From: Irpex lacteus
Lineage: Eukaryota; Basidiomycota; Agaricomycetes; Polyporales; Irpicaceae
NCBI GenBank assembly: GCA_001986395.2
Contig: MQVO02000024.1
Location: forward strand, 310,001 to 374,000
Reading direction: 5' to 3'
Length of the DNA stretch: 64,000 nt
Within the stretch, counting starts at the first letter, position 1. Each line of letters opens with the position of its first letter. The translations under genes and the position numbers were made by a program. Below the pieces are notes generated by a model. It saw nothing but the letters and a program-made list of their open reading frames with translations. It had not been told where the DNA came from and made no database searches. This document shows, in pieces, positions 18,832 to 36,250 of the stretch.

Positions 18832-21129
18832 ATGGCCAACGTTACTCAGTATAACCCGCAAGTATTTCGCGTTATTTCATTTAATGCTAATCATACCGCA
18901 AATAACACTGCAGCAGCGCTGCAGCACTTTCTGTTTGCTGACGCTATTTTCATTCAGGAACCATCTTACTCCGTGCTCAAGCACGTACCGTCACCAACAA
19001 ACCCAGATGGTGATGAGTTCTTCGGAACTCAAGCACAGCCCGCCGACTGGCTTCTACTTGAAGTACGTGATATCCACAACGCCCGAGTGGCATGTTACGT
19101 CAACCACCGCTGGAGAGGAGCTAACCCTCGCACAAGGCATGACATCATTTCCCACCCGCACCTTCTTTGCTTCTCTCTCATGTTTGGAGACACTGAACGT
19201 TTCTTCCTTAACGTCTACAGCCATCCAGACACCCATGAAGGGACTAAAGCACTCATCCAGTCCCACCACCTCCCTCCCTTCACCCTCATCGCTGGTGACT
19301 TCAACTCTCATCACATGCTGTGGGAGTCTGCGCGCCGCAACGACGTGCACGCCCAAGACATCATCGACTTCATGCCGGATGTGCAGGTGTCCCTTCTTAA
19401 CATACCTGATGTCTTCACCCACTTCCCACATCGTCGCTCCTTCCAACCTTCGGTCATCGACCTGGCTTGGCTTAGCTCTGAGCTAGTAGACCATCCCCTT
19501 ACTTCTCTTACTATTGATCCCAATTCCCGCATGGGCTCCGACCATGCTGTACTTATCATTGATATTCCTACTGTTCCGGCATACGTTGCCACTCCACGAA
19601 TAAAGCCGGGTTCAGAAGAAGAAGCTGACTTCATCAGCGACGTGCTTGAAGCTTTTACACAACACACCAACAATTCTTTATCTTCTCTCGCTGAAATCGA
19701 AACATCACTAACATCACTCTTCACGTCCATCCAGGAGGCCTTTGACCGACACGCGCAAATGCCTAAAATCTCAAGTCACTCCAAGCCTTGGTGGAACGAG
19801 GAGTGCCGTCGTGCACTTGCTAAGTTCCGTGCATCAAACCTTCTCGAAGACCGGTGGGCGTTCTTCGCCGCAGTACGCACTGCAAAGCGGCAGTACTTCG
19901 ACGCTGTCATCGCCGAAATGGTCGCCAAGAAACGCACATGGGACCTCACCGCTTGGTCCAAACCCCGTCCCATCTCCACGGTCTCGCATATTCAAGACCG
20001 TAACGGCAACATCATCCACTCCTTCAACCACTTCGTCCATAGCTGCGCGGATCAATTCTACTCTGCGCAGGATCGGCAAGTGGACCTATCAGCTGTCAAC
20101 TGCTTCCCGCAAAGAGAAGAACGCGCCTTCCCCCCCTTCTCAACCAAGGAACTGCGTGACGCCCTTGCAGGCACCTCATCACGCTCAGCCCCTGGCCCCG
20201 ACCACCTTACCTGGCCAATCATCAAATTCCTATGCCAAGACCACTCCATCGAGGACTACCTACTACGTGTATTCAATGCATGCGTCCAGCACTCCTTTTG
20301 GCCATCCCAATTCAAGTCCTCGGTCACCATCATCATCCCGAAACCCAAGAAACCCGACTATTCCATCCTCAAAGCCTATCGCCCCATCGTCTTACTCAGC
20401 TGCGTCGGCAAGCTCTGCGAGAAGATGATTGCGAATCGCATGCAATACGACTGCATCCGCCACCAACTCCTGCACCCTTCACAATGTGGAGGCGTACGCT
20501 TGCACTCCACGGACGACGCAGGCCTCCTCCTGACACACCATCTCCGAGCTGCCCGTGACGCTGGACTACACTCTACGTGTCTAGCCATGGACATCGCACA
20601 ATTCTACCCCTCTGTCAACCACCTTCTCCTAGTCACCATTCTCAGGCGGCTAGGATTCTCGTCCTCGCTTTGCAAGCTGGTTGAGTCATACTTAGCCGGC
20701 CGCAGCACCCGATTCAGATGGTCTGACAAACTGTCTGAACCCATCGATTGCACCGTTGGCGTTGGCCAAGGCTCCTGCCTCTCATCACTCTTTGCGGCTC
20801 TCTCAATTCTTCCGGCCCTGTTCCTCATCTCACGCCTCCTTCCCGCTCCCACTAGTATCCTCCGCACCTCACTCCTCTTCTTCGTTGATGATGGAACACT
20901 CGTAATATCCACCGATTCACTGGGAACCAACATCTTCCTACTCGGCTTCCTCTACCCACGCATCGTCTCTGCGTTTAAGCAGATCGGCATCGTCTTAGAA
21001 CTTGACAAACTCGAACTCTGCCATTTCCCTCGCCCGCGCTTCTCAGGCCCCCTCCCCTCCCTTTCTATTACCCTCGACGGCGCAACAGTCACTCTTCAAC
21101 CACAGCGAGTGTGGCGCTACCTCGGATTC
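18832..21129 (+). CDS. LINE ORF2, 5' part: APE endonuclease and reverse transcriptase
   Basis: First 766 codons of the polyprotein that nicks target DNA and reverse-transcribes the element. APE-type endonuclease, residues about 1-240: FNANHTANN, IFIQEPSYS, GDFNSHHMLW and SDHAVLI. Reverse transcriptase, residues about 430-760: SAPGPDHLTWPIIKFL, YRPIVLLSCVGKLCEKM and the catalytic FVDD box at about residue 683 (20881-20895; Val replaces the usual Ala of YADD). Coding stops making sense after VWRYLGF at 21129, exactly where the KDZ transposon begins; 5 foreign codons follow before a stop. The continuation is at 34697. Confidence 0.9.
21123..21129. repeat. KDZ transposon target-site duplication, left copy
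   Basis: CGGATTC, repeated at 34690-34696. It lies within LINE ORF2. Confidence 0.85.
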
Positions 21130-21156
21130 CAGGCGTCCATGTAGGGATTTCTGAAA
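21130..21156 (+). repeat. KDZ terminal inverted repeat, left
   Basis: 27 nt starting CAGGCGTC, then the CATGTAGG and TTTCTGAAA cores. It pairs with 34663-34689 at 20 of 27 positions. Confidence 0.85.
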
Positions 21157-21384
21157 AACTGCTCATAGACCAGTAGAGCGGATTTAATCTAAGCCTGCTA
21201 CAGCAGCATTTTTGTTTCAGAAACATTGCTGCTAGCGCGTTTCTGAAACACTGCTCCTAGCATAACTTACCAAAAGCGGCAGTTTACCGCGCCTCAGAAT
21301 AATGATTACTAATAAAAATAATTGGCCCAGATCAATCTTATGGCGGTTGCGAGATCTACAGATATTACAACACTACTAAAATAG
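21157..21384. repeat. KDZ left subterminal region with TTTCWGAAA motifs
   Basis: Two further copies of the terminal core, TTTCAGAAA at 21215-21223 and TTTCTGAAA at 21240-21248, each followed by an ACTGCT/ATTGCT word. The first lies in a CAGCA...TGCTG inverted repeat (about 21200-21234). Arrayed subterminal motifs are typical transposase-binding sites; that role is inferred. Confidence 0.6.
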
Positions 21385-21895
21385 GGAGCGGGAGTAGGAG
21401 CGGGTGGGCGGGCATATGCAGCGGGGCGGATATTGTGTCAGGGCGGGAAATAGGGCGGGGCGGGAATTGCGCCAGGGCGGGATATGCAGCGGGACGGATA
21501 TTGTGTCAGGGCGGGAAATAGGGCGGGGCGGGAATTGCGCCAGGGCGGGATATGCAGCGGGACAGAAACTGGGACAGGGCGGGAAATAGGGCGGGCGGGA
21601 ATTGCGCCAGGGCGGGATATGCAGCGGGACAGAAACTGGGACAGGGCGGGAAATAGGGCGGGGCGGGAATTGCACCAGGGCGGGATATGCAGCGGGACAG
21701 AAACTGGGACAGGGCGGGAAATAGGGCGGGGCGGGAATTGCACCAGGGCGGGATATGCAGCGGGACAGAAACTGGGACAGGGCGGGAAATAGGGCGGGGC
21801 GGGAATTGCACCAGGGCGGGATATGCAGCGGGACAGAAACTGGGACAGGGCGGGGAATGGGCCGGGGCGGGAATTGCACCAGGGCCAGAAATAGA
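21385..21895. repeat. 68-bp G-rich minisatellite inside the KDZ element
   Basis: About seven tandem units with GATATGCAGCGGG-type starts at 21413 (variant), 21481, 21549, 21616, 21684, 21752 and 21820, i.e. spacing 68 with one 67. The unit contains GGGCGGGAAATAGGGCGGGG, with at least four runs of three or more G on the plus strand: a G-quadruplex-type motif repeated in each unit. Long ORFs through it on both strands are artefacts of a repeat lacking stops. Confidence 0.9.
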
Positions 21896-22091
21896 GCGGG
21901 AGGGAGAAAAGGAATCGGGAGGGAAAGCGTCGGGATGGCAAAAGTATCACAGGGGGGTTAGCATAGGAACGAGATGGCGGCAGAGCGGGAATTGGGCATA
22001 CAGGAGAGGCGGGAGCAGGGTTATAAAGAGAAGCTGATGACGTGCGATGAGGGCCACATTTGCAGCGCCGCGAATGCCTCTTGCTCGCCCA

Positions 22092-25000
22092 CTAGTTGAA
22101 TTCGTCCGCGTACATATCGTAGTCGTCCGCATAGCCTTCCTCTTCTTCCAGCTCGAGGTCGATAACGGGATGGTTAGGTGGCGGTAACGGTGCTTCTTCA
22201 TCGGCATTGTCTCCGGCGTTTGCATCACGGTCGGCGTTCGCTTCGTTGTCTACCTGAGCTCCTCCATCCTTGTCGATATTTACCTCCACAAGAATAGGAT
22301 TCTCGCGCATGAATTTCTCGGCGGATGTTCGAAGCGGGAGCCACTGTTGTGACCAATGGTTTGCGAGCTTCATCTCGTGGTCTGCGTGCGAGAGCGCGTA
22401 GGCCCTTCTGCCCTCGTAGACTTCGTCAGATTCCCCAGGATCCCGATATTGAGCTCGTTCGTGCCACCACTGGCTGCGTGCATGACAAAAGGCGACGGCG
22501 CGACGCATTTCTTCATGCAGGAGGGCGACTTCTTCCCACCATCGCAGTGCACGTGCTCTGCACCTCGCCCACTCAATTCGAAGACCTCAAGAAACCAGTC
22601 AGCGAGATTAAAAAAACAACAGTCACAATAATTACTCACTTTCTTGCACATACGGGTCATTATCGTCCTCCCCGGCATTCTCAGCAAGCCATATCCACGA
22701 CAACGTCCGGCGGCCTTCGCGAATGGGAAGATCGTCTTGAAAGTCAAGGCCGTACACTCCCTCGACAGACATCCCCGCAGCTTGTCGAATGGCTGCACGC
22801 TCGGCCTTCTCCTGCTCAGTGAGTGCTCGCTCATTGAAAGACCGGACGTCTTCGTCGCGAAGAACTTTCAATATCTTTTCCCAGTCGCCTGGACCTCGAA
22901 CTTGCAACAGGGCGCCGCGGGCGCGGCGATACTTCTTTGCGGCCGACAAGGCCCTCCGATCGATAATTGCAAGCCACGAGCGACCTCGCGTGTTTGCCCG
23001 TTGGCCGACCATGTTCTTGATCTTGTACCTATTTGCGAATGTCCGTGTGCGTAGTTGGCGTCGTAGATCGTCCAACGCCTCCTTGGCCTGAGCTTCCCGC
23101 AATTGATCCTCCAGCCGAAGAAGGTTCGCGTCACAGACGTTGCGTCTGTGATGCTCGAGACGAGAATCGGAGGGTAGGTACAGGGGGATATCCTCGACCT
23201 CTTGAGCTGCTTCACCTTCAACAGAGCCATCAGCGGCGAACTGTACGACACGTACAAGACCAGGCATGTGGATAAGTTGCTGCCGCCGGAACTCTTGCAA
23301 TTTACGCCGCAACGCCCGTCTTCGCTCGTTTCGCGCGAGCTCCGTGAGAACATTGCCGAAAGGAATATCAGCAATCTCCGCTTGGAGGTGCATCCTGTCG
23401 TATGGTAGTCAGTGCGGAGGCTAGCTGTGCCAGTTGATATGTATGAAAACTCACTGTGCGTTCTCGAGATCGAGCCCCAAACATATAAACGACGCCGGTG
23501 TATTGTCCTGCACGACACCGTGCTGTCTCATCTCCTCCTGCTCGTCACGAAGGGCAGCCAGGCGAGCCATGTTGAAAGTTTCCTCTAGGATACATTACGT
23601 GTGAGTGAAGTCTATCTGGATCGAAATGTGAAACCTACGTGGACGACTCGACGTGTAAGGACATGGCGCAGTGGGATCTCGCGTCCAAGTGTCGAGCATG
23701 GTCTCCCACTCTGCTACTCTTGCAGGGTTGCTCTCGCGAAGTTGCGCGTTGAACGCCAGGTACTCTTCTTGATGGACCTTCGCCTGGTTGATAGCCTCGA
23801 GCATACGGCGCGCGAGAGAACTACCCAGACCATTGTTCTTCCTCCAGTTCAGAAACGCGCAGAGATCATCCAGGAGTTCTTGACGTGCCGCCGGTGTCAT
23901 CTCCTTGATACTTGGGGCCACCTTATTCAACCACGACCAAAGCCGCTCGATGCCCTCGCCATCGGTCTCTCCGGCACCCTCAGTGTAGTTGAGCGACATG
24001 GGGCCATGGCACGACTCTTCGTGAGCCCGGAGATGGCCTTTGGGAACCTTCGTAACCACTCGACCAGCGGAAACGTTCAAACGTAGCCATTCAGGAAGAC
24101 TACGCATTCGCGTCCAGAAGTTCTTGAAGTACTGGCATGCGATGTCGTACGTGATGAGGAGATGCGACCGAACGCCTACGAGAGAGGCAAGGAGCACGTA
24201 GTCGACATTGCACTGCCTAACGCACGTTAGCACAGCTAATTAATAAACAGATGCAATGATATACTCACCTTTCCCCCCGCTGCAGATCCCCCATCCCATT
24301 TGGCCTCCACATGTCGTGTCTGCTACATGCGACCCCGACAACACCGGTGGCGTTCAAGCCTTTCGCCTTCTTGAGGTTCGCGAGGATCATTGCGGTAAAG
24401 CCTGAGCATGTACTAAGCTATGCGAGTCGATGTCAACAACGAAGATAGAAGTAAATAAACTGCGTACCTCGGTTTCAGATGCATGTTTCCTGACATGCTC
24501 CATATATCCTTGTGGCTCGACAAAGTAAGATAAGCCAGGTGCTAGAGCGACGTGCACATTGTTGGTTGCACGATGCCGGTTCTTGAGACGAAAGTTGCAA
24601 TCTACGGCAACCGTCTGACGGTACAAGTATCTGAGATGGGGCGGCGTCGTAGCATAATCCTCGGGCAAGTTGACTCCGGGGTGTGGGCATGCACGGCAAG
24701 GAACCGACAGCTCGCCGGGCTTTGTGGTTGATATCCCGTTGGGGAAGTGCCCTCGACCAGCACGCATGAAAGCCTTCAGATTACGCCACTCCCGTATCAT
24801 GTTCGTCAACGATTGATGACGATCCTAGGTAATTATTGAGCTCAGTCGTTGAGGGTTCGAGAAAAGACTACGTACAGGTAATTTCTGCAAAGGCGAGCCG
24901 CCGGTTTTCAACTCCAGTACCTTCCAGAAATCATAGACCGTAAGATTTCCTTGCAGGTTCAGCAGATGAAAGAACTCGAGAACTTCTGTGGTTGCGCATG

Positions 25001-25836
25001 TTTCAGGAGAGAGAGGTGTCGCGGGGAACCATGAGGTGCGAAGGAGCTGCTGATAAGGCAAGGAATGATCGACGCGACACGCGCAAAAGTTGACATTAAC
25101 TTCATGGATTCCGTTGACGTGGAGGACAACCATGTGTTTGTGCTGCGGTGATGGGCATGGAGTCGATGAACCGTGGTCCCCTAGATGTACGACCAAACCG
25201 AGCTCGCATAGCGAGACCCTCTGAAAGTGACTGTCCTTCCAGACCTAAGTCATATCAGCAAAAGCGACGCCTATCGCGAGGAAGCACGCACCTTAATTCG
25301 ATGCAACGGCAGCTTTCGATGTTCATGAACACAGCATTCTTGGCACAACAACGATTGATCGATACAGTCTTCGCAACGATACATCGGGTTCCACGTTGTA
25401 CAATTTGAACATACAGATGTTGGTACTGAGCCCCGCCCGTTTCCACGTAATAGTTCTCGCAAATATTCCTCTCGAAACTCGAGCCACGTATTCAGTGGCG
25501 CATCCTGTTCCCAGAGTTAGCGTATGCAAAGAAGTCTGCTCATCGACTTACAGAATTAAGATAGCGCTTTGCGCGCGTTGTGGCCCTCACAACGACTCCG
25601 ACTCCGTCGTCACGAATTTCTTGCGCTTGGTTTGCTTCTTCAACATAAGCAGGGTCAGAAGTTGTGGGAGAGAAGGTATCAACCTTAGGAGCAATCTCCA
25701 CAACTCTCTCAGTGAGTTTGAGGCGTCGGGTGGAGAAGTCGAAGTCGAAGGTGCTGGCGGTAGCACGATTCCTGACGGTTGAGTGGTCGTAAAGCACAGC
25801 TTTCTCTCGTTTGCGTTTCTTGCTGCTCCCGCTCAT
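22092..25836 (-). CDS. KDZ transposase with CxC2 cysteine cluster
   Basis: DDE-type transposase that would excise and insert the element; roughly 1,100 residues in about nine exons. The start at 25836 (MSGSSKKRKREK) gives a basic, NLS-like N-terminus. Exon 2 (about 25290-25504) carries the CxC2 cluster: CSNC, CEDC and CQECC. The KDZ core follows: VDCNFRLKN near 24590 (first Asp), YDIACQYFKNFW near 24130 (second Asp) and DGEGIERLWSWL near 23945 (Glu), each matching family motifs. The C-terminal part has EGRRTLSWIW near 22710 and a helical tail ending in an acidic stretch at 22092. No frameshift or stop was found across the exons. An ATG at 25920 is an alternative start but gives an atypical N-terminus. 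Confidence 0.87.
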
Positions 25837-26010
25837 GGCGACGACGATGGCAAAGGAGGTAGTGGTGGTGAGGTAGTGAGTCGGATGGGCGTTTGCTGAA
25901 CACGCGCGGACCACGCACAATCAACCAGTCAACGAGGTCACGTGAACCAGGGATTATTGTCAAATTGACGCCCTCCGCTACACTCTGAGATATATCAACA
26001 TATGGTTTGT

Positions 26011-27566
26011 CTAGCCGTATAGAGTCATACGATCCGCGTGTAATGAAGAAGTCGTGGAGAACTGTGCTACAGCTTGCTCCCAACGGGTCTCCCGAGATCT
26101 CATCTCTTTAGCTAGCAGTAAAGGGTCGGCGGCGAGAGAGTTCCATGACTGACACCCGTATTCAACCCAGCGGAATAGCCCACCCGCGGCGTACTGCGTA
26201 AACGATTCCCGTTGCTCGCCAGGCTGGATGGAAACATTACCATGCATCAATGTCGCCGACGGTATGAGGGCTAAACAACCCGGCGGGAATTCCACTAAGA
26301 GCTTGAGCTGCCGGAGGATAAGGTGGCCGCCTTTCCGTGGGTCGAAGTTACCGCTGCAGAAGATCGGGCAAAGGCCGTTGGCTTTGTTCCCAGAATCCGT
26401 GTGCTCGTAGGTTACGACATCTGGCCCGAAATTGAACGAGGCGGCGGCAAAGACTGTGTCCTGCATCGGACGGATAAACTCGGGGTGATTTGCGAGCAAT
26501 TTCTCCATGTTATCTTCGTATTCTTTGTATATCTTAGGGAAATAAAACTTGAACACAGCTATAGGTGTGATGTTAGTGCGGGACGAGGCTAACTCGCTAA
26601 ACACGTACCGTTTCCGTGGCCTAGCACTCGCCCAATGGAGGGGTTCGACATGAGCTGCTCCAAAACCTTGACGTTTCGCTTGCTATGCCTGAGGATACCG
26701 GGTTTCTATAAACTGTATAAATAGAGCCTCTTGATACATGGCGCATGACTCACCATCTGTCCTCCACCGTAAGATAGTCCCGTCGCGACAGTCTTAAACG
26801 TTCCACGTCGGTCCTGCTTCGAAGAGAAGCGGATTGACTTCTTCGCAGCATACATAGCAGCACGGGCACCTTCTACAACAGTCGGCCAGCTGTTTTCCCC
26901 GGTAGGAGGGCCAACGAACAGGCCAAAAAGTCTGCCCTCGTCATCCACCAGCCCAAGGGGTCGGCTAAGGCTGCATCAGGCATGTAGAGACGCAAGCGTA
27001 TGAACAGCGTACCTGCCGTCCCATTCCACCACCTTAAAGCCCTCTTCCAGGTAACTTTGCAGCGAATTATGCTCGGCGGCGACATTGAAGCGTTTCCCGA
27101 TAAATCCTGCGCGTGTCACGGTCAGCTTATGGACTTTGAAGGTGGTTTTCACCGTGTCGAGCTTCTGATAGCGCTTGGATTGGCTCTTGCGGATCTTGCG
27201 TGTCACTGGATCCCTGGCTTCGGCTCTCTTTCTTTGGCGACGCTTCTTTGCACCTTCTTGCTTGTGTGTACGCGGTTTGCGAGGGCTTACGTCTGTGTTC
27301 GTGGTTGGGCTTGGGGGGTAAGGCTCCTTCGGCTTGGACATCGCTTCCTCTGCAACGCATGGGGAGGGGGATCGAGAGGATAATGGCGATGAAAAAGGCG
27401 AGGCGTACGGCGATGAAAAAGGAGAGGTGGATGGTGATGTGAGCGGAGAGGCAAACGGTACATACGTGAGGGGCCAGCCTTCCGCGTCGTCGCATATATC
27501 CTCCTCTCGCTCATTCTCCGCCGATACTGCCTCCTTAACCAAAGTTTCCAATGAGCAATCCACCAT
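26011..27566 (-). CDS. TET/JBP-family 2-oxoglutarate/Fe(II) dioxygenase
   Basis: Putative nuclear enzyme oxidising 5-methylcytosine (or a related base) in DNA. Four exons (27013-27566, 26754-26970, 26609-26705, 26011-26558) give 471 residues with consistent phases. The first 130 residues are Ser/Pro-rich then basic (KKRRQRKR), NLS-like. A fungal TET/JBP N-terminal module follows (VVEWDG...LVDDEGRLFGLFVGPP). In the double-stranded beta-helix, EHTD supplies H342 and D344, LMHGN supplies H395 as the second iron His, and R406 in GEQRESFTQY is the likely 2-oxoglutarate-binding Arg. FDPRKGGHLIL, EFPPG and GGLFRWVEYG are characteristic of basidiomycete TET/JBP proteins. It is the second gene of the KDZ element, 174 bp upstream of the transposase and co-oriented. 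Activity is untested, but all expected ligands are present. Confidence 0.85.
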
Positions 27567-29370
27567 GCATACCTCGAACGGGGAGAATACGGCTCCAGAG
27601 CGTGTCTAGTAAGCCACGTCAGTATACGATGCAGCCCAATGCATGGTATCACATACTGTTCTTTCCTGAGTCATGAGGGAGACGGAAGGGGCTGTCAACT
27701 GCGTATTAGCGTGTTTTAAACGATGAATAGGCACTTATTTGAGAAAGTAATGTGGACGGGCTGCCGGATTCAGCTAACCAGGCGTATTGGTCGCGCCACG
27801 TAGAACCCGGATGGATTCAGCGTCGACGCGTACCGCAAGCCGTAGTCTTCGTTTCCGTGCCTTTTCTATGTAAGAAGAGCAGAAGATAAAGAAAAACGCG
27901 TAAATGACACACAAAACGCGTCGAGGAACTCAACGTTGCCGTAGTACCTAGTTAGATTCAGCGGCGACGAGAGTTGGAAGCATTGCAAAATGTAGCAAGA
28001 GAAGGCACAAAAAAACTCTATCAAGCCTCATAGCAGACACTTACAATGTATTTCAGAGGTAATATGAAAGACACCGTGCAGCAGATAGCCAGAGGGGGCA
28101 GGCGTATGGGAGTTCTGGTGAAGGTTGGAAACTGGCGCCTGTACCAATCCTCCTCGACAGCCGATCATACTATCATTGCTCGCGCGCATGAAGCCTCAGG
28201 CCTCAGGCTTAGTACTGTTTCTCATTGCGAAGCTTTGGGGATTTGACGAGTCTGTACAGGCTGGTGAACCAGGTGAGGTAGAAAATCAGTGATTAACGGT
28301 TGAGTTTAACGTAGATGACATTCGTTGTTATTGGGGAAGCCATGCACAAGTGGCCAGTGTTCGAACGAGTTGCAAGGCGTCCGATGTGAAGTATTATCTT
28401 AGTAGGCTTAGTGATAGTAAGGACAAATGAAGGGTTACTGAGTACGACATGCATTGACATACTTGAGTTAATCGCATCGAGTGAGGTTGATAGATACCAA
28501 GTGTAGGTTGAGTTTCCCTTGCAGAGTGTTACAGTGAGCCGAATGTACGACTTGCAAGTATCGGGCTCATATCACAGCACGCTACAGTGAGTGCTCATAC
28601 TCCTATAGCTCCTAGATTGCTATGTGCACCCTGTGGGCAATTTCATACGCCATGCCCCGCAGCCTGTCTGACTCCCATCTCTGGGGCTTTATGGTGGTTA
28701 TCGGCGCATCTATTTACTTGTGTAATTACGGAGTTCGTTGGCAATAGTATGACAGCATGAGTGCAGGCGGATTTAGCCCACAGTTAACGTGCTCGAGAGA
28801 TTCATTTGATATGCCTTGGCCGTGAGCAATACTCGGTGATCTGGTAGAAGGCGGACGGACGGCCACACAGGCATATGCAGCGCTGTGTGAAGCCTGAGTC
28901 TTTGTGTCCCTCAGTATTATTTTTTGGATTCCCAAGCGTGCTCGCCGTCGATGGCACCTGATACAGACGAGTGCGCTACTCTCATGCAACTGCAAGGTAT
29001 GGGCCATCCGCGAATAATTATTGAATCTAACTACTCTACCGCGTGTCTATTATAAACAATCAACTTGAATTAATGCAAGCTAAACCAATACTAATATAAC
29101 ACGAGCGCAGAACTTCCATATGCTGTTAGTTTTCAGTTCGTGCATCATGAGTTCTCATAGGTGCTGAACGAGCCTCAACTACGGCTGCCAATTGGCTCAT
29201 ATTCGCATGACAAGAATAACTTAGGTTAGACAAGACATCCGGCGTAGCAGCATTATAACTTCCTCTTTAAGCAGTCGTTAGGGTTAGGGTTAGCGAATCA
29301 CACCAACATAAAAAAGCGAACATAACATCCATTGCATAGTCCAAAAAACAAATGACAGCAAATTATCTAA
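27567..29370. other. Internal KDZ spacer
   Basis: 1.8 kb between the TET/JBP gene and the next cargo gene. There is no convincing coding sequence; ORFs are at most about 95 codons. It probably contains the TET/JBP promoter. It includes a short telomere-like tract at 29278-29293. Confidence 0.4.
29278..29293 (+). repeat. Short telomere-like TTAGGG tract
   Basis: TTAGGGTTAGGGTTAG: two full copies of the canonical fungal telomere repeat plus part of a third, inside the KDZ spacer. Confidence 0.6.
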
Positions 29371-31400
29371 CTAATCTAACTCCAAGCAGCGAGCAGGCAT
29401 AGGGTAGCGCAACGTCAACGTCATCACCAAATCGTCCTTAACCGCATTGTGCCAAATCTGCTCAGCGTGGGCATGGGATTTGCAATGCCGATACAAGGCT
29501 TCGCGAATACCGACAACATGGGGACCGGCAAGAAGCCTGCAACGCACGTCAATAACTACCAATTAAATAGACAAAAAATCAACGTACCAAGAAGCATATA
29601 CACCGGGTCTGAGTCCACGGACAACAACACAGTAACTAGAGTGAGCGGGAGCAGCATAATCGACACGAAGATACCGATGAAAGCGATCGTTGACAGGAAT
29701 GACATCCTCACAGATGTCACGATTAGGGAAATAACGATCAGAAGCAAAACGACAATACAAACGCTCATGAAACACTTTCGCCCAACGAGCAAGAGCGACG
29801 TGAGGATTGGTGAAGGATTCCCATACAATATGCTGACTAGGACCTGCATTCGCCAATGCGACTGCCCTATAACAACAATCAGAAATGAAAAGACATATAA
29901 CAAAATAACTTACATCGTATGATATAGACCTGGAGATTTACCCCAAGCCACTACCCAATACTCGCGTTCCGTCGATGGCTTCACATCCTCCGGGCAAAGA
30001 AGACGTCGGCCAACACCCGTGAAGAAATTATTGGGGACGGCTACACATAGGAAGATTAATTCAGAACATAAGAAACAAATGTTAATTACTTACGCGAAGG
30101 CGTGCGAAAACGTGTAGGAATAATCTGCTCGGAGTTGGCAGCATAGCGAGAAGGCTTCACAGGGGAAGGCGGAGGCGTAGCGGGGACAGGACCGAAGTGA
30201 GTAGGACGCGGGATCCAGGACGAGGACGATGAAGGCGGCGACGATCGAATGGACGTTGGGGGGAAGGGAGATGGTGCACGCCGTGATAACCCACTGGGAG
30301 GGACTGGAAGGGAATGGGGAGGAACAAACGACGACGGCGACGAGGCTCGTGGTGGCACGAACGCGGATGGCGATGGAGCTAAGGGAAACGAAGACGAGAA
30401 CGAAAACGACGGCGGACGAGGAGACGACGAGGTGGGAATGACGATTGACAACGCACTCCGCTTAGAACGCGAGGTTACATGTCCAACAGCGCTCAACGCA
30501 GGAGACACGACGTCGCGAGCAGAGGGAGAGGTGGGAGGCGCGGCGGGAGAGTTTGAGAGTGACGAGTCGAACGAAGGCTTATTTATATGCCTCCGTCGGA
30601 TGATTTCGGAGATAGCTCGTGGGGGTGACTCATCAGAATCAGAATGCGGGGGCGCTGCGGAGGATGACTTTGATTGGCGAGGCGGCGTTTGCAGGTTTGG
30701 GGGTCGCCGATGAATGCTTGGCGCGACAGTTGGCACAGGAATGGAAGAGACGTCGTGAGGGACGGCGACGGCAGATCGCGGTGACGGCACAGGCAAGCGA
30801 GAGGTCGTACGAGAACGGGAATATTCACCAATAACATTTGGGGCATCTTGCTGCGGCGTGAGAGTCGCTGTTGCTGCCGAGGAATATCGAAGCTTTTTGG
30901 GGTGAGAGCTGCCCGAGGTCGGAGAGGATGACGGCACCGTGCTGACCCACGCCTTCACCGACGCTGCCCGGATGGACATCTCGTCGAAGGCGCAACCGAG
31001 TAAATCGGTGGTTGTGCGTCTCTTGCTGGATTGGGTCGAGGCGTCCTGCAGATCAGCAGTTTGCACACCGCGCGTAACCCATGAGCGGCCAGTTGATGGA
31101 TGACGCGATGGGGAGGAGGGTGGCGACGGTGAACGAGGTGTTGGCTGTGACGACACAGACGGTAATACACATGCTACGTTTCATTACACGTGGTTAGAGA
31201 TGCTCGTCGATACTATCGTAGAGGCACGTACCTGGGGAAACTAATGACTCTCTGACGGGTCCAAGTATGGGCACACGGAACGAGTCGTCGTCGGATATGT
31301 CGGAGAGGGACAGCGACTCAAACGAGGAGGTATCTGAATGATCCGAATGCGGTAGGAACGAAGGAGTGTGGTTGGGCGACGAGAATAAAACTTCAGACAT
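29371..31400 (-). CDS. Ser/Pro-rich protein with two viroplasmin/RNase H1-N-like repeats
   Basis: Cargo gene of the KDZ element. ATG 31400 starts MSEVLFSSPNHTPSF. The first two thirds (to about 30086) are disordered and Ser/Pro-rich with basic patches, without domains I recognise. The C-terminal exons hold two copies of a short motif: YWVVAWGKSPGLYHT followed by VWESFTNPHVALARWAKVFHE, and YCVVVRGLRPGVYASW followed by an EALYRHCKSH segment. This YxVxxGxxPGxY pattern is that of the viroplasmin/RNase H1 N-terminal nucleic-acid-binding fold. If correct, the protein would bind RNA-DNA hybrid or dsRNA. No RNase H catalytic domain follows. The repeat call is moderate; the role is unknown. Confidence 0.55.
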
Positions 31401-31991
31401 AGCGATAAAGCAAGACAGAGCGATTAAGAGATTCGAACGAAAGACAACAGTCCAGAGAGATGGGGTATCGTGAAAAAGAGAGGCGTAGGAGGGTGATGGC
31501 GCGGCCACATCATATAAAGAAACCCTACCCGACGTCGTCGAGCGGAGTTGGCTGGGTTTCAATACGAAGTTCGCCTGAGAGACATAACTGAACTGCCATC
31601 AGGCGATATTGATCCATAATTGCGATTTGAGATGAACCACGCAATTTATTAAGGGTAGCTAATGTAATGAAGTAATAGAAAGAAAACTATATAACAAATC
31701 AGTACATGATTATTAAGTATATGACAGATATAAGAATTATAAAGACAGGCTCCATGATACAAACGAGGGCGTGCTGACGAGAATTAAATGGAATGTATAA
31801 CAAGTCGGGAACTGATAATGATGCGTATGCGGAGAGGGGGTGCGACAGCAAAGACGAGAAGGATGACAGGGGGGCATGTACGACAACGAAGACGAGGGCG
31901 AGAGAAAATGACGAAGCGACAGACACGACAGAGCCGACGAGGGGGGATAGCGGTGCGAGATAGCGGTAGGAAGGACGTTGGGCTGAGCGGG
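31401..31991. other. KDZ spacer between cargo genes
   Basis: AT-rich, 590 nt. It presumably holds the promoter of the viroplasmin-like gene and the 3' end of the next gene. I see no gene. Confidence 0.35.
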
Positions 31992-34142
31992 CTACTTCCT
32001 TGTCCGTTTTCTAGGCTTAACTGGACCGTGATTCGCGGGCCGCTTTGTTATGGAATTTTTGTCAGCTTTCTTGAACAAGCTGACGTCGACGTCGTGTTCC
32101 AGAACCCAGGCGAAGTCGTCCACGAGAGCCGACCACTGGGGCAACAAAGCGTCTTCGCCGTGCACGAAGATTGCATCACCAACCCACAGCAGGCCACATA
32201 GCACCAAGAACACGCCGTTCGTGCCTGCGCTCAGGACCACAGCCCAGTCGGCATCAACAGGGGACGTTGGTCGCTCCTGCTTGTTGGCACCACGAACGGC
32301 GGGTTGCATGGAGCGCCACCATCTCTCGATGCTAGTCAGGAAACCAGAGTGGGACGCAATTCTTGGCCCCTCGCTCGGACGAGCGTACCTGAACCAGTCC
32401 TTGAATTCCTCTGGGCGAAGATCAAGGGGCAGGTTGCCGCGCGATGGATTGTCGAAGGCGTGCTTAATCTGCAGGCGTGCAAATGCTGACACACACCGTG
32501 TCCACCCTAGATCAAACTCGGCCTGAGCAGGCACCTTGTAGGCGTCCAGCAAACGCTGCGGACAGCCAGCGTCGATGAGGATTCGAAGCGGAAGCGGGTC
32601 AGACGGATGCGAAGCATTCGTGGTATTGTCGTCCGTGGAATTGGAGGACGAGCTGGTCGTAGGCCTGCTAATCGAGGGGTCCGCTTGTGATTGAGACGTT
32701 GTTGGTGTGCGAAGAGATGACGACGAGGGGGACAGAGGCTTTGGAAGCGACGATGGAGGAGACGGAGACGGCGGCGACTGCGACGATGGAGGAGACGGAG
32801 ACGGCGGCGACTGCGACGATGCAGGAGATGGAGACGGCGGCGACATTGCTGACTGAGCGGGATGACTCGAGGCGCTTGGCGAAGGAGCTGAAGGCGTGGG
32901 AGAGCGCTCAGGAGGATTCGCGCCAGTGGATTCTGGCGCTTGCTGGGGAACTGCTGGGGGAGTGGGCCTGTCGGCCGTGGTAGGCGTGTTGCTCGGTGTT
33001 GCTGGGTCGGCGTCGAAGAGGGACCGCCTGTCACGTTCTTCAGGAGGGAACATACGTGAGGCGAAGTTGATCATAGAGGACTCCGCTTGCTCGAATCCAC
33101 GCCGGTCGAGCTCTGGCCAATTGCGTGGCGAAATGTCGTTGGTAGTGCCTGCGTGATAGCTGGATACACTATGAATACGGTGTGCCGCCCAGTACAATTA
33201 TACCACGTACCTACGAAGCCCTATCTCACCGCCTTTAGCCGGGATAGGGCCAGCTAGCAGTATTGAGACCGCTAGGCCCGTGCGAAGCCGCAATCCTTCA
33301 GCAATCGCCTTCACAAACGGAGCGCAGTTATCGAGACGACTACATGACATTAGATATGACCGCTCAAGCATAATAAGCTAAATACATACTCTTGGAATTC
33401 ATCCGGCGTGGTCGGAGGGCCCAATCCGGTACTCATCTCAGCTTTGCGGGCCTCGAGATCATCATCTGCGGCCTGGCTGACCGCCTTCTTGACCTCCGCG
33501 GTCTCCTTCTCCCAGCATTCCTGCACAGCTGCCTGTCGTACTGCAAGGGGATGGGGCGGCGGTTTGCTTTGCGCGGCTGCTTCTGCGACGGCCTCCTCCC
33601 ACCGGGTGTTGAAGGTCGGGAGCACCCGCTCCTTGTAGTAGAGTCTCTGGTATATCTGGTAGTCTGGAGTCTTGCGGAGACGTTCATTCTCCACCTGGGC
33701 TATCTGGCGAAACAGCTTGTTCGTTTCTTCGGTGAAACACTTGTCGTTGACCTTGCGAAAGTGGTGGTTGCACCATAGGGTGAGTTTCTGCCGTAGATTG
33801 TCAGAAAGAAAGAAAAGGCTTTTCGTGATGTGAACGCACCCTTCGCAAGCTCTTGTAATATCCCACTTTCTCCTTCATTTCCTCTGCGCTCAAGCCCGCA
33901 GTCCCTGGGTACTTGCTCCCCTGGACGGTTTCGAGGACGTCCTTCACCGGTTCCACCTCGGGGTCCACTTCCAAGGGGAGATCGTAGCCATACCGAGCGA
34001 TGAAAGCGGTGGTCATGTTGTCGTAATAGGTGGTCGTCGTTTTATCGCGCTTCGCGGTTTCCCACCGCTCTTGATACGTTTCAAGCCATTCGAGCTTCTT
34101 CGGTGGCCAGCTCTTTCGTCCAGGTGGTGCCTTGGGTGGCAT
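31992..34142 (-). CDS. Protein of unknown function, family expanded in agaricomycetes
   Basis: Cargo gene nearest the right end of the KDZ element. ATG 34142 (MPPKAPPGRKSWPPKKLEWLETYQ) opens a helical N-terminus; splicing joins SLRR to KLTLWCNHHFRK, then a charged helical stretch. A compact exon (about 33213-33345) reads FVKAIAEGLRLRTGLAVSIL then AGPIPAKGGE, a GGP-type core I recognise from a large lineage-expanded basidiomycete family of unknown function. The Pro/Ser-rich middle has a 10-residue repeat (SQSPPSPSPPS, about 32730-32850). The C-terminal domain includes WFRYARPSEGPRIASHSGFLTSIERWWRSMQP. It could be a DNA-handling accessory, but I see no catalytic motif. An in-frame upstream ATG at 34370 lies in a repeat-rich segment and is less likely. 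Confidence 0.6.
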
Positions 34143-34662
34143 ACGAGCAAGCAAACGAAGGACGAGGGAGGGGGGGACGCAGGTGCGGTGGAGGAAGGAG
34201 GAAAAGGTGGTGAGTAAGCGCTGATGTTCGAATTCGGGACAGGTCGGCAGCGGGGTAGAAGGAGCGCCCATGTTGCATTTGGGAACTGGGCGCCCCGCCC
34301 CCCAGTGCCCGACGTATCCACAACGCCCGACGCCGTGGGTGCGTATTAGCCGAAGCGACGGAACACCCACTATTCAGGGTTACGGGGCGGGCAGCCTGCC
34401 CCTAGTATCCACAACGCCCGACGCCGTAGCTGGTAAGCGACGTTGATGGGGGAATATGCCAAAAAAGGTCCGGGAATGGTCAGATTATGGGGACGGCATC
34501 TGTTCACCGCTCATATATGATCGGGAGAATGCTTTTGATGGCAAAATGCCCATGCCGAGCGCATTTGCCGGTAGGAGGGTGGTTTCAGAAACCTACACAT
34601 ATTGGCAGGGGCCTCCTATAGGAGGGATATATTATATACAAGGTACTGGTACAGCAAGGATA
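34143..34662. other. KDZ right subterminal region
   Basis: Contains a 23-bp direct repeat (34313-34335 and 34407-34429) in GC-rich sequence, then AT-richer sequence with a TTTCAGAAA core at 34583-34591 in the palindrome GGTTTCAGAAACC followed by CTACA, as in the terminal repeat. A TATATTATATA tract is at about 34627-34637. No gene. Confidence 0.55.
34313..34429. repeat. Pair of 23-bp direct repeats
   Basis: GTATCCACAACGCCCGACGC plus CGT, exact at 34313-34335 and 34407-34429, 94 bp apart, near the KDZ right end. Role unknown. Confidence 0.75.
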
Positions 34663-34689
34663 TTTCAGAAAGGCCTACATGGTGTGGTG
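34663..34689 (-). repeat. KDZ terminal inverted repeat, right
   Basis: Reads TTTCAGAAA...CCTACATGG...GTG on the plus strand; inverse of 21130-21156 with 20 of 27 matches. Confidence 0.85.
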
Positions 34690-34696
34690 CGGATTC
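34690..34696. repeat. KDZ transposon target-site duplication, right copy
   Basis: CGGATTC, the second copy of 21123-21129. Dropping one copy rejoins LINE ORF2 in frame. Confidence 0.85.
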
Positions 34697-36250
34697 TTCT
34701 TCGACTCATCACTCAACTTTCGGTACCACGTTCGCTACTACTCCACCAAAGCCCTCAGCACAGTACGGGGATACCCGTTACTGGGGAACTCAAACCGTGG
34801 CTTGGCTCCAGATCAAAAACGCCGCCTCTACATCTCCTGCGTTCTTCCTATCCTCACCTACGGCTTCCGTCTCTGGTACAATCCTCGCAAGCCGCAGAAG
34901 TCGCTCATTGCTATGCTCTCACGCGCTCAATCTGCCGCAGCTCGGTGGATTCTCGGTGCCTTCAAAACTTCTCCCATTGGTGGTATGGAGATCCTTGCAG
35001 GCCTCCTCCCCATGCACCTCCATGTCCGACGACTCTTTGACCGCTCAATCCTCCGGTTCCAACGCCTCCCCAATAGTCACATCGTCTCCGTAGCTGCAAA
35101 CCCCACCGCTGCCCGAGACATTTCCCACACTATCGGATTCCCAATACGTAACATCCTTCCCCATTCCCCACTTCCTCTGCAGATCGCACATCAGTTCAAA
35201 CACCCCTCCCTTGAGCCCACTGCCTACGCCCACCCAGAACTCCAACCTGGAGCTCGTCTTCTTGATATCTTCTCTTCCCGCATTTCGTTTGACCCTCCAC
35301 ACCCCAAGAAGTCTTCAGACGAGTTTTCCCCATGGCTAGACAACCTTCGCACATTTATTTCACATCTTTCGAATTCACCGTTGATGGTTTTTGGCTTCAC
35401 CGACGGATCCGCCCGACCAGGAACTCCAGATGTCGCCGCCGCCGCCTATCGCCTCTACATAGGAAGCACGCTCACAGCCTCTTCTGCCTTCGTCTTTACA
35501 GAGGCCACTGCCTACGACGCCGAAATATTAGCTCTTGCCGCCTGCATTAGCAGAGGCATTGAGAGCACGACCACCGACCTCCACATATTCGCTGACAGCC
35601 AGTCTGCTGTTCAATCCATATTTGACGTCGGCACCCATTCCGCACAGTTTGCTTCTATATCCCTATCCTCCAAACTCCGCCGCTGGTTCACTATCAACCC
35701 AGCAGCGCACCTGCACGTACACTGGTGCCCGGGACACGTCGGCATTGTGCAAAACGAGCTCGTCGATCAAGACGCGCGAAACGCCCTCAGACGACCCAAC
35801 CCCACTCAATACACATCTGTGGCTTGGGTGCGACAACACACCAAGAAGAAAGCACTCGCGGCATGGGCCAAAATGTGCACATTCCGCTCCTACACAGGCC
35901 ATCATTTTCTCCGTGGCCGTGCCCCCCTTAAACCCAACACTCACAAGGGAGGACCTTTTCTCTCCCGGTTCACATCAAACGACCTCGTAGCGCGTGCAGC
36001 CCGCGCGATCCTTTGCCATGCTCCAATAGGAGAATTTCGACAACGCTTCTTCCCCGGCACCCCGACGAGATGCAACACTTGTGGCGTCTACCAAACTCGA
36101 GCACACATCCTAAATGAGTGCACACGATATCGGCGACCGCGACCAAACTTTCTGGAGTTCCTCAAAAATTCGGCCCATCCTGACTCCCTTATCCTTGCTT
36201 TTCTCAAAGATAATCCTTCCGCATTCACTTTTGACGACGCACCTGTATAG
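34697..36250 (+). CDS. LINE ORF2, 3' part: RT thumb and RNase H
   Basis: Last 517 codons of ORF2, in frame with the 5' part (766 codons) once the KDZ element is discounted; total 1,283 residues. It begins FFDSSLNFRYH, completing the RYLGF-FFD motif of fungal LINE reverse transcriptases, then KALSTV and GLAPDQKRRLYISCVLPILTYG. The RNase H domain has GFTDGSARPG (first Asp, near 35401), ATAYDAEILALA (Glu), IFADSQSAV (Asp) and WCPGHVGI...NELVDQDAR (His, Asp). A Cys-rich knuckle-like CNTCGVYQTRAHILNEC lies near the end. An ATG at 34679 belongs to the KDZ terminus and should not be taken as a gene start. Confidence 0.9.
   Translation, partial: FFDSSLNFRYHVRYYSTKALSTVRGYPLLGNSNRGLAPDQKRRLYISCVLPILTYGFRLWYNPRKPQKSLIAMLSRAQSAAARWILGAFKTSPIGGMEILAGLLPMHLHVRRLFDRSILRFQRLPNSHIVSVAANPTAARDISHTIGFPIRNILPHSPLPLQIAHQFKHPSLEPTAYAHPELQPGARLLDIFSSRISFDPPHPKKSSDEFSPWLDNLRTFISHLSNSPLMVFGFTDGSARPGTPDVAAAAYRLYIGSTLTASSAFVFTEATAYDAEILALAACISRGIESTTTDLHIFADSQSAVQSIFDVGTHSAQFASISLSSKLRRWFTINPAAHLHVHWCPGHVGIVQNELVDQDARNALRRPNPTQYTSVAWVRQHTKKKALAAWAKMCTFRSYTGHHFLRGRAPLKPNTHKGGPFLSRFTSNDLVARAARAILCHAPIGEFRQRFFPGTPTRCNTCGVYQTRAHILNECTRYRRPRPNFLEFLKNSAHPDSLILAFLKDNPSAFTFDDAPV

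Follow-up and report, generated by a model that had tools for sequence, protein, structure and literature searches.

Structure and insertion site of the transposon

The window analyzed here, a stretch of 64,000 nucleotides from Irpex lacteus (contig MQVO02000024.1, positions 310,001 to 374,000), contains a Kyakuja-type transposon of 13,560 bp with CA..TG termini (21130..34689, no strand assigned). Its left end starts with CAGGCGTCCATG at 21130, its right end finishes with CATGGTGTGGTG at 34689, and it is flanked by two copies of the 7-bp target-site duplication (TSD) CGGATTC, at 21123..21129 on the left and 34690..34696 on the right. Four genes lie between the ends, all modelled on the minus strand with splice sites predicted from the sequence and each readable in one frame: a KDZ transposase, a predicted TET/JBP-fold dioxygenase that directly precedes it and two accessory genes. 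By its sequence, the element is structurally complete and of the KDZ/Kyakuja kind. The original prediction, made from the DNA letters, had placed both ends at these exact positions, with a target duplication, and had counted four genes, and both claims held, the first through the flanking CGGATTC copies and an empty site on another contig, the second through the predicted splice models.

The element interrupts a long interspersed nuclear element (LINE) on the plus strand. Based on the list of open reading frames (ORFs) and on copies in C40 and C28 (these C-numbers are contig labels within the one genome), the LINE frame opens at 18832, is broken at 21129 and picks up again beyond the element, from 34697 to 36250. 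A 76-nt probe made of both flanks fused, with the element removed and a single TSD copy kept, matched C40:325175-325250 at 76/76 nt (100%) and, less closely, C28 (89% over 75 nt); one genome holds both the occupied and the empty site. Compared with the C40 copy, the occupied LINE shows 96.9% identity on the left (1,537 nt) and 99.6% on the right (1,546 nt); the corresponding values for the C28 copy are 97.8% and 84.9%. The LINE copy predates the insertion of the element into it.

The search for other copies with the same termini, suggested together with the original prediction, was successful: a second, independent KDZ insertion at C173:194214-252548 has the same tips and another 7-bp TSD, CGGGCAA. 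This relative extends over 58 kb through nested insertions, and a second pair of KDZ and dioxygenase genes is nested within it at 210.8-215.7 kb. No near-identical copy of the element was found elsewhere among the DNA matches listed, which were 66-78% identical except for two short stretches, one of 43 nt at 93% and one of 30 nt at 100%.

A conserved 20-nt inverted motif, CCATGTAGGNNTTTCTGAAA, lies 7 nt inside both tips (21137..21156 on the plus strand and 34663..34682 on the minus strand), with 2 matches in the window and 0 in 100 shuffles. The outer 7 nt of the ends are inverted at CA only, and 18 of the next 20 are inverted. The genome contains the core of the motif at five places: two in this element, others near KDZ genes on C173 and C267, and a fifth on C58, about 15 kb away from a KDZ locus, which lacks CA where it would be expected and was disregarded. 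Since the core is mostly found at KDZ genes, nesting of the KDZ gene in a different transposon is disfavoured. For the C173-B and C141 elements, searches with the end motif located no ends. Alternative ends, TAGG..CCTA with a 4-bp CATG duplication, where the inverted motif is symmetric, were rejected because the C173 copy shares nucleotides further out on each side and has its own 7-bp duplication, and because the empty LINE copy puts the breakpoint outside TAGG..CCTA.

The transposase gene (22092..25836, minus strand) gives a 1109-aa model of 9 exons, with 8 GT-AG introns of 47-60 nt each. Its KDZ (PF18758, 2.4e-57) and CxC2 (PF18803, 2.7e-34) Pfam domains, together with D364, D443 and E548, confirm the three acidic motifs and the CxC2 cluster predicted for it, and the pairing of KDZ domain and cysteine cluster is that of a KDZ transposon. 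The acidic motifs are also present in the C173 and C141 relatives, where the second is E. In the sections of Kojima 2025 (PMC12730594) drawn on here and below, the Kyakuja lineage is described with 5'-CA..TG-3' termini and a 7-bp TSD, and Zisupton and Dileera with an 8-bp TSD. Both insertions described above have CA..TG termini and duplications of 7 bp, not 8. The same sections present complete TET-positive Kyakuja elements of Agaricomycetes with their ends and TSDs, Polyporales being among the host orders named, and these are like the present element in their KDZ transposase, CA..TG termini, 7-bp TSD and internal TET/JBP gene. A complete copy with defined ends and duplication, proposed originally as distinguishing, is therefore real at this locus but already published for other elements. 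The inverted motif of the ends may set them apart from two Laccaria families described there without terminal inverted repeats. The kind of element is thus already known; the new parts are the branch of its dioxygenase, the slot this branch shares with another and the evidence of selection.

The dioxygenase and its base pocket

The dioxygenase gene (26013..27566, minus strand; 471-aa model, 4 exons) stops 176 bp before the transposase gene begins. H342, D344, H395 and R406, precisely the residues named when a complete TET/JBP enzyme was first claimed, make up the HxD...H...R signature, so that the iron and 2-oxoglutarate residues are kept. The predicted structure of a 45%-identical relative (P0009) gave CcTet, NgTET1, TET2 and CMD1 as top fold matches, and a TET/JBP fold, a double-stranded beta-helix, is assigned to the window's enzyme by way of this model.

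Pocket positions were counted across 64 family members by their spacing from the HxD motif, not from superposition. The HxD itself is kept in 64/64 members, Asn stands at His+5 in 64/64 (N347 here), Cys at His+11 in 63/64 (C353) and Ala at R+8 in 57/64 (A414, two residues after Y412). By the same spacing, the Asn corresponds to human TET2 Asn1387, as numbered in the parts of PMC11040006 consulted for this comparison, where R+8 is His or Arg in characterized TETs and contacts the O2 atom of 5-methylcytosine (5mC). Transposon enzymes have been sorted into PU, AG and PE types (PMC12730594). In the AG type, that of Kyakuja, CcTet position 331 is Gly or Ser and position 337 is Asp, whereas the window's enzyme has Asn and Cys, respectively; compared with CcTet of Coprinopsis cinerea (PDB 7vpn, 7w5p, 8jkk), it has no equivalents of Gly331 and Asp337. 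The PE type has HxE instead of the HxD seen throughout this family. Neither phmmer nor a profile search started from the window's dioxygenase family retrieved CcTet, so that the family is not a close sequence relative of it, although a 98-aa piece from another Irpex locus, on C18, served as positive control and matched CcTet at 5e-7. By sequence, then, the enzyme belongs to neither of the mushroom types, AG and PE, as these are described in the sections of PMC12730594 drawn on.

Among the matches listed, the nearest named relatives of the dioxygenase and the transposase come from Cytidiella, Phlebia, Phanerochaete, Phlebiopsis and Irpex, which makes a basidiomycete of the polypore group the likely host. 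A precomputed Pfam domain is absent from all 120 listed relatives of the dioxygenase, and the branch is therefore likely undercounted. A PF20515 profile search gave no matches anywhere, hence it was uninformative, and NCBIfam gave none for five proteins.

A second KDZ locus, C18:924361-927222, is like the window's element in having a dioxygenase upstream of a KDZ transposase on the same strand. Its enzyme differs, being CcTet-like (the 98-aa piece matches 8jkk and 7vpn at 5e-7 by phmmer) and having a Ser and Asp pocket. Two dioxygenase branches therefore occupy the same slot. The C18 locus also differs from the window's element in being CpG-depleted, and it looks like an old, methylation-decayed element though it carries a TET gene. 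The window's own family stands likewise upstream and on the same strand of integrase-like ORFs at two further loci, C37 (801.7-804.6 kb) and C140 (~29k), with dioxygenases 47-48% identical to the window's. The integrase-like ORFs have no meaningful Pfam match; presumably they carry a D-D-E motif.

We tentatively propose, as a reading slightly less likely than not, that these enzymes form a fourth, unrecognized branch in Agaricomycete DNA transposons, an 'N/C type' named for the Asn and Cys of its pocket. This branch would have moved between unrelated transposase families within one genome, landing each time just upstream of the transposase, in the slot held elsewhere by the CcTet-like branch, which would amount to a repeated and convergent arming of transposons with 5mC erasers. 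The branch may already stand among published TET lists.

Linkage, selection and the role of the dioxygenase

We found at least 25 KDZ loci in the genome, merged by hand from 49 matches, and 13 matches to the window's dioxygenase family, which make 12 loci after two of them were merged. Three of the 12 have a KDZ match at a distance of 2 kb or less, and nine have none within 10 kb. Conversely, four KDZ loci have a dioxygenase within 5 kb, one of the four being CcTet-like. The order of dioxygenase and then transposase is kept at three KDZ loci. In other species, five dioxygenases apparently share a contig with a KDZ transposase (from hand-picked rows, 61/120 for the dioxygenase and 35/120 for the transposase). 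Of the contigs concerned, two are short (9,078 and 53,314 bp), and the other three, above 400 kb, say little. On the 9,078-bp contig, labelled Pleurotus ostreatoroseus, the dioxygenase and the KDZ protein have consecutive locus tags.

Selection was judged from the proportions of nonsynonymous (pN) and synonymous (pS) differences, as synonymous saturation prevented most dN/dS ratios. The catalytic domain gave pS of 0.77-0.90 and pN of 0.17-0.24 among four copies (C32, C173, C308 and C141), and the transposase gave pS of 0.72-0.81 and pN of 0.18-0.28, also among four copies. Purifying selection on the catalytic domain is strong and has held it about as firmly as the transposase.

We consider it probable, though well short of certain, that this structurally complete Kyakuja-type (KDZ) transposon carries, in the gene preceding its transposase, a predicted TET/JBP-fold dioxygenase that likely oxidizes methylated cytosine on the element and so would weaken host silencing. 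This proposal builds on features read from the DNA: the two ends with their 7-bp duplication, the existence of an empty site, four genes readable in one frame each on predicted splice models, the retained iron and 2-oxoglutarate residues, the gene order at three KDZ loci and the strong purifying selection on the catalytic domain. The proteins would be expressed from the element, which would be autonomous and move by cut and paste; the substrate of the dioxygenase would be 5mC, and its oxidation would favour the element by weakening silencing. A 5mC substrate is plausible, since the host genome contains genes for cytosine-5 methylases (8 matches above the cut-off).

Several observations weigh against this proposal. 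Where characterized TETs touch the O2 atom of 5mC, this family mostly has Ala, and His+11 is nearly always Cys. No dioxygenase was detectable within 5 kb of 21 of the 25 KDZ loci, and the N-terminal part of the enzyme is less constrained (pN 0.29-0.34 among three copies). The element has a CpG ratio of 1.08, against 0.96-1.03 for the LINE, and across KDZ loci, with the ages of the elements uncontrolled, it is 0.93-1.28 at those without a dioxygenase (19 of the 21, for which DNA was cut out), 1.12-1.17 at the three with the window's family and 0.68 at the C18 locus with its CcTet-like gene, for which a CpG ratio of 0.63-0.68 and a TpG/CpA of 1.27-1.31 were also noted; no signal of CpG protection was found over the element, the LINE and the KDZ loci. 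The original interpretation of a transposon countering its own silencing was partly supported: it stood as to the complete KDZ/Kyakuja element and the predicted TET/JBP fold, was favoured by the purifying selection, and was weakened by the many KDZ loci without the gene, by the different pocket and by the lack of CpG protection.

Oxidation of 5mC might also act in the opposite sense. In Laccaria and Coprinopsis, oxidized 5mC goes with repression and correlates with silenced genes and transposable elements in the portions of PMC8889193 used here, which opens a reading, unlikely in our judgement, where the oxidized bases are a repressive or self-limiting mark that lowers the cost to the host. 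CpG depletion of the C18 locus in spite of its enzyme would agree with such taming, but selection within the element should remove a self-limiting gene, and the catalytic domain has instead been kept, at low pN against saturated pS. The unusual Cys and Ala, which set the family apart from CcTet, NgTet1 and TET2, and the presence among the fold matches of CMD1, a modifier rather than an eraser, could instead point to another substrate (N6-methyladenine (6mA), thymine, RNA or a glyceryl-type hypermodification), for example in marking transposon ends for the transposase. This seems quite unlikely to us, given for 6mA that the CcTet activity is tied to Gly331 (in the parts of PMC11040006 consulted), where all 64 members have Asn.

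That the dioxygenase is a passenger, captured by chance and with no part in the transposon life cycle, we regard as very improbable. The KDZ loci without the gene would suit a passenger, as would the end-to-end relative C173-A, which has no dioxygenase of its own (its transposase is truncated on that side, and the gene may be lost), and an intact copy at C308:1755870 with no KDZ gene in the 20 kb covered. Against it stand the strong amino-acid constraint at saturated synonymous divergence, the conserved gene order at three loci and the linkage in another species. Absence of the TET gene from all sister copies, named at the outset as the mark of a chance passenger, was not what we found: relatives of the gene adjoin KDZ genes at two further loci. 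The orphan at C308:1755870-1757418 is 73% identical, with an open catalytic exon, and is possibly a host-kept gene.

Why mushrooms hold so many TET-like genes beside transposons is a question that this element makes testable. It is a defined test object, with exact ends, an empty site in the genome and apparently intact transposase and dioxygenase genes, and it can be set beside another KDZ locus whose equivalent slot is filled by a different dioxygenase branch. If the enzyme erases 5mC, the transposon would encode its own means against methylation, with a base pocket that differs from the solved one of CcTet.

Accessory genes and sub-terminal repeats

The second of the two accessory genes (31992..34142, minus strand, 4 exons) encodes a 668-aa protein without a Pfam match above the cut-off. 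Based on tblastn with a preliminary splice model for the start of the protein, relatives occur at four other loci. One lies inside the C173 element, beside its right end, and the other three have a KDZ gene no more than 10 kb away; among these three, the C141 relative is weak (E 4e-4). With five loci against 25 KDZ loci, this is a recurrent accessory gene of such transposons. One pair gave a pN of 0.38, and a protein search returned two relatives, both from Mycena. The other accessory gene (29371..31400, minus strand, 5 exons) encodes a 606-aa Ser/Pro-rich protein with a C-terminal Cauli_VI (RNase H1 N-terminal-like) domain (4.2e-8). In a Hygrophoropsis KDZ protein (P0189), PF01693, the domain of this cargo protein, is joined with KDZ and CxC2.

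Concerning the left end, sub-terminal repeats TTTCTGAAANNCTGCT are found on the plus strand within 21148..21260, at 21148 and 21240, with a weaker copy at 21215. A GC-rich 68-bp tandem array (21406..21885, no strand assigned; 7.1 copies, 96% matches) sits between this end and the transposase gene.
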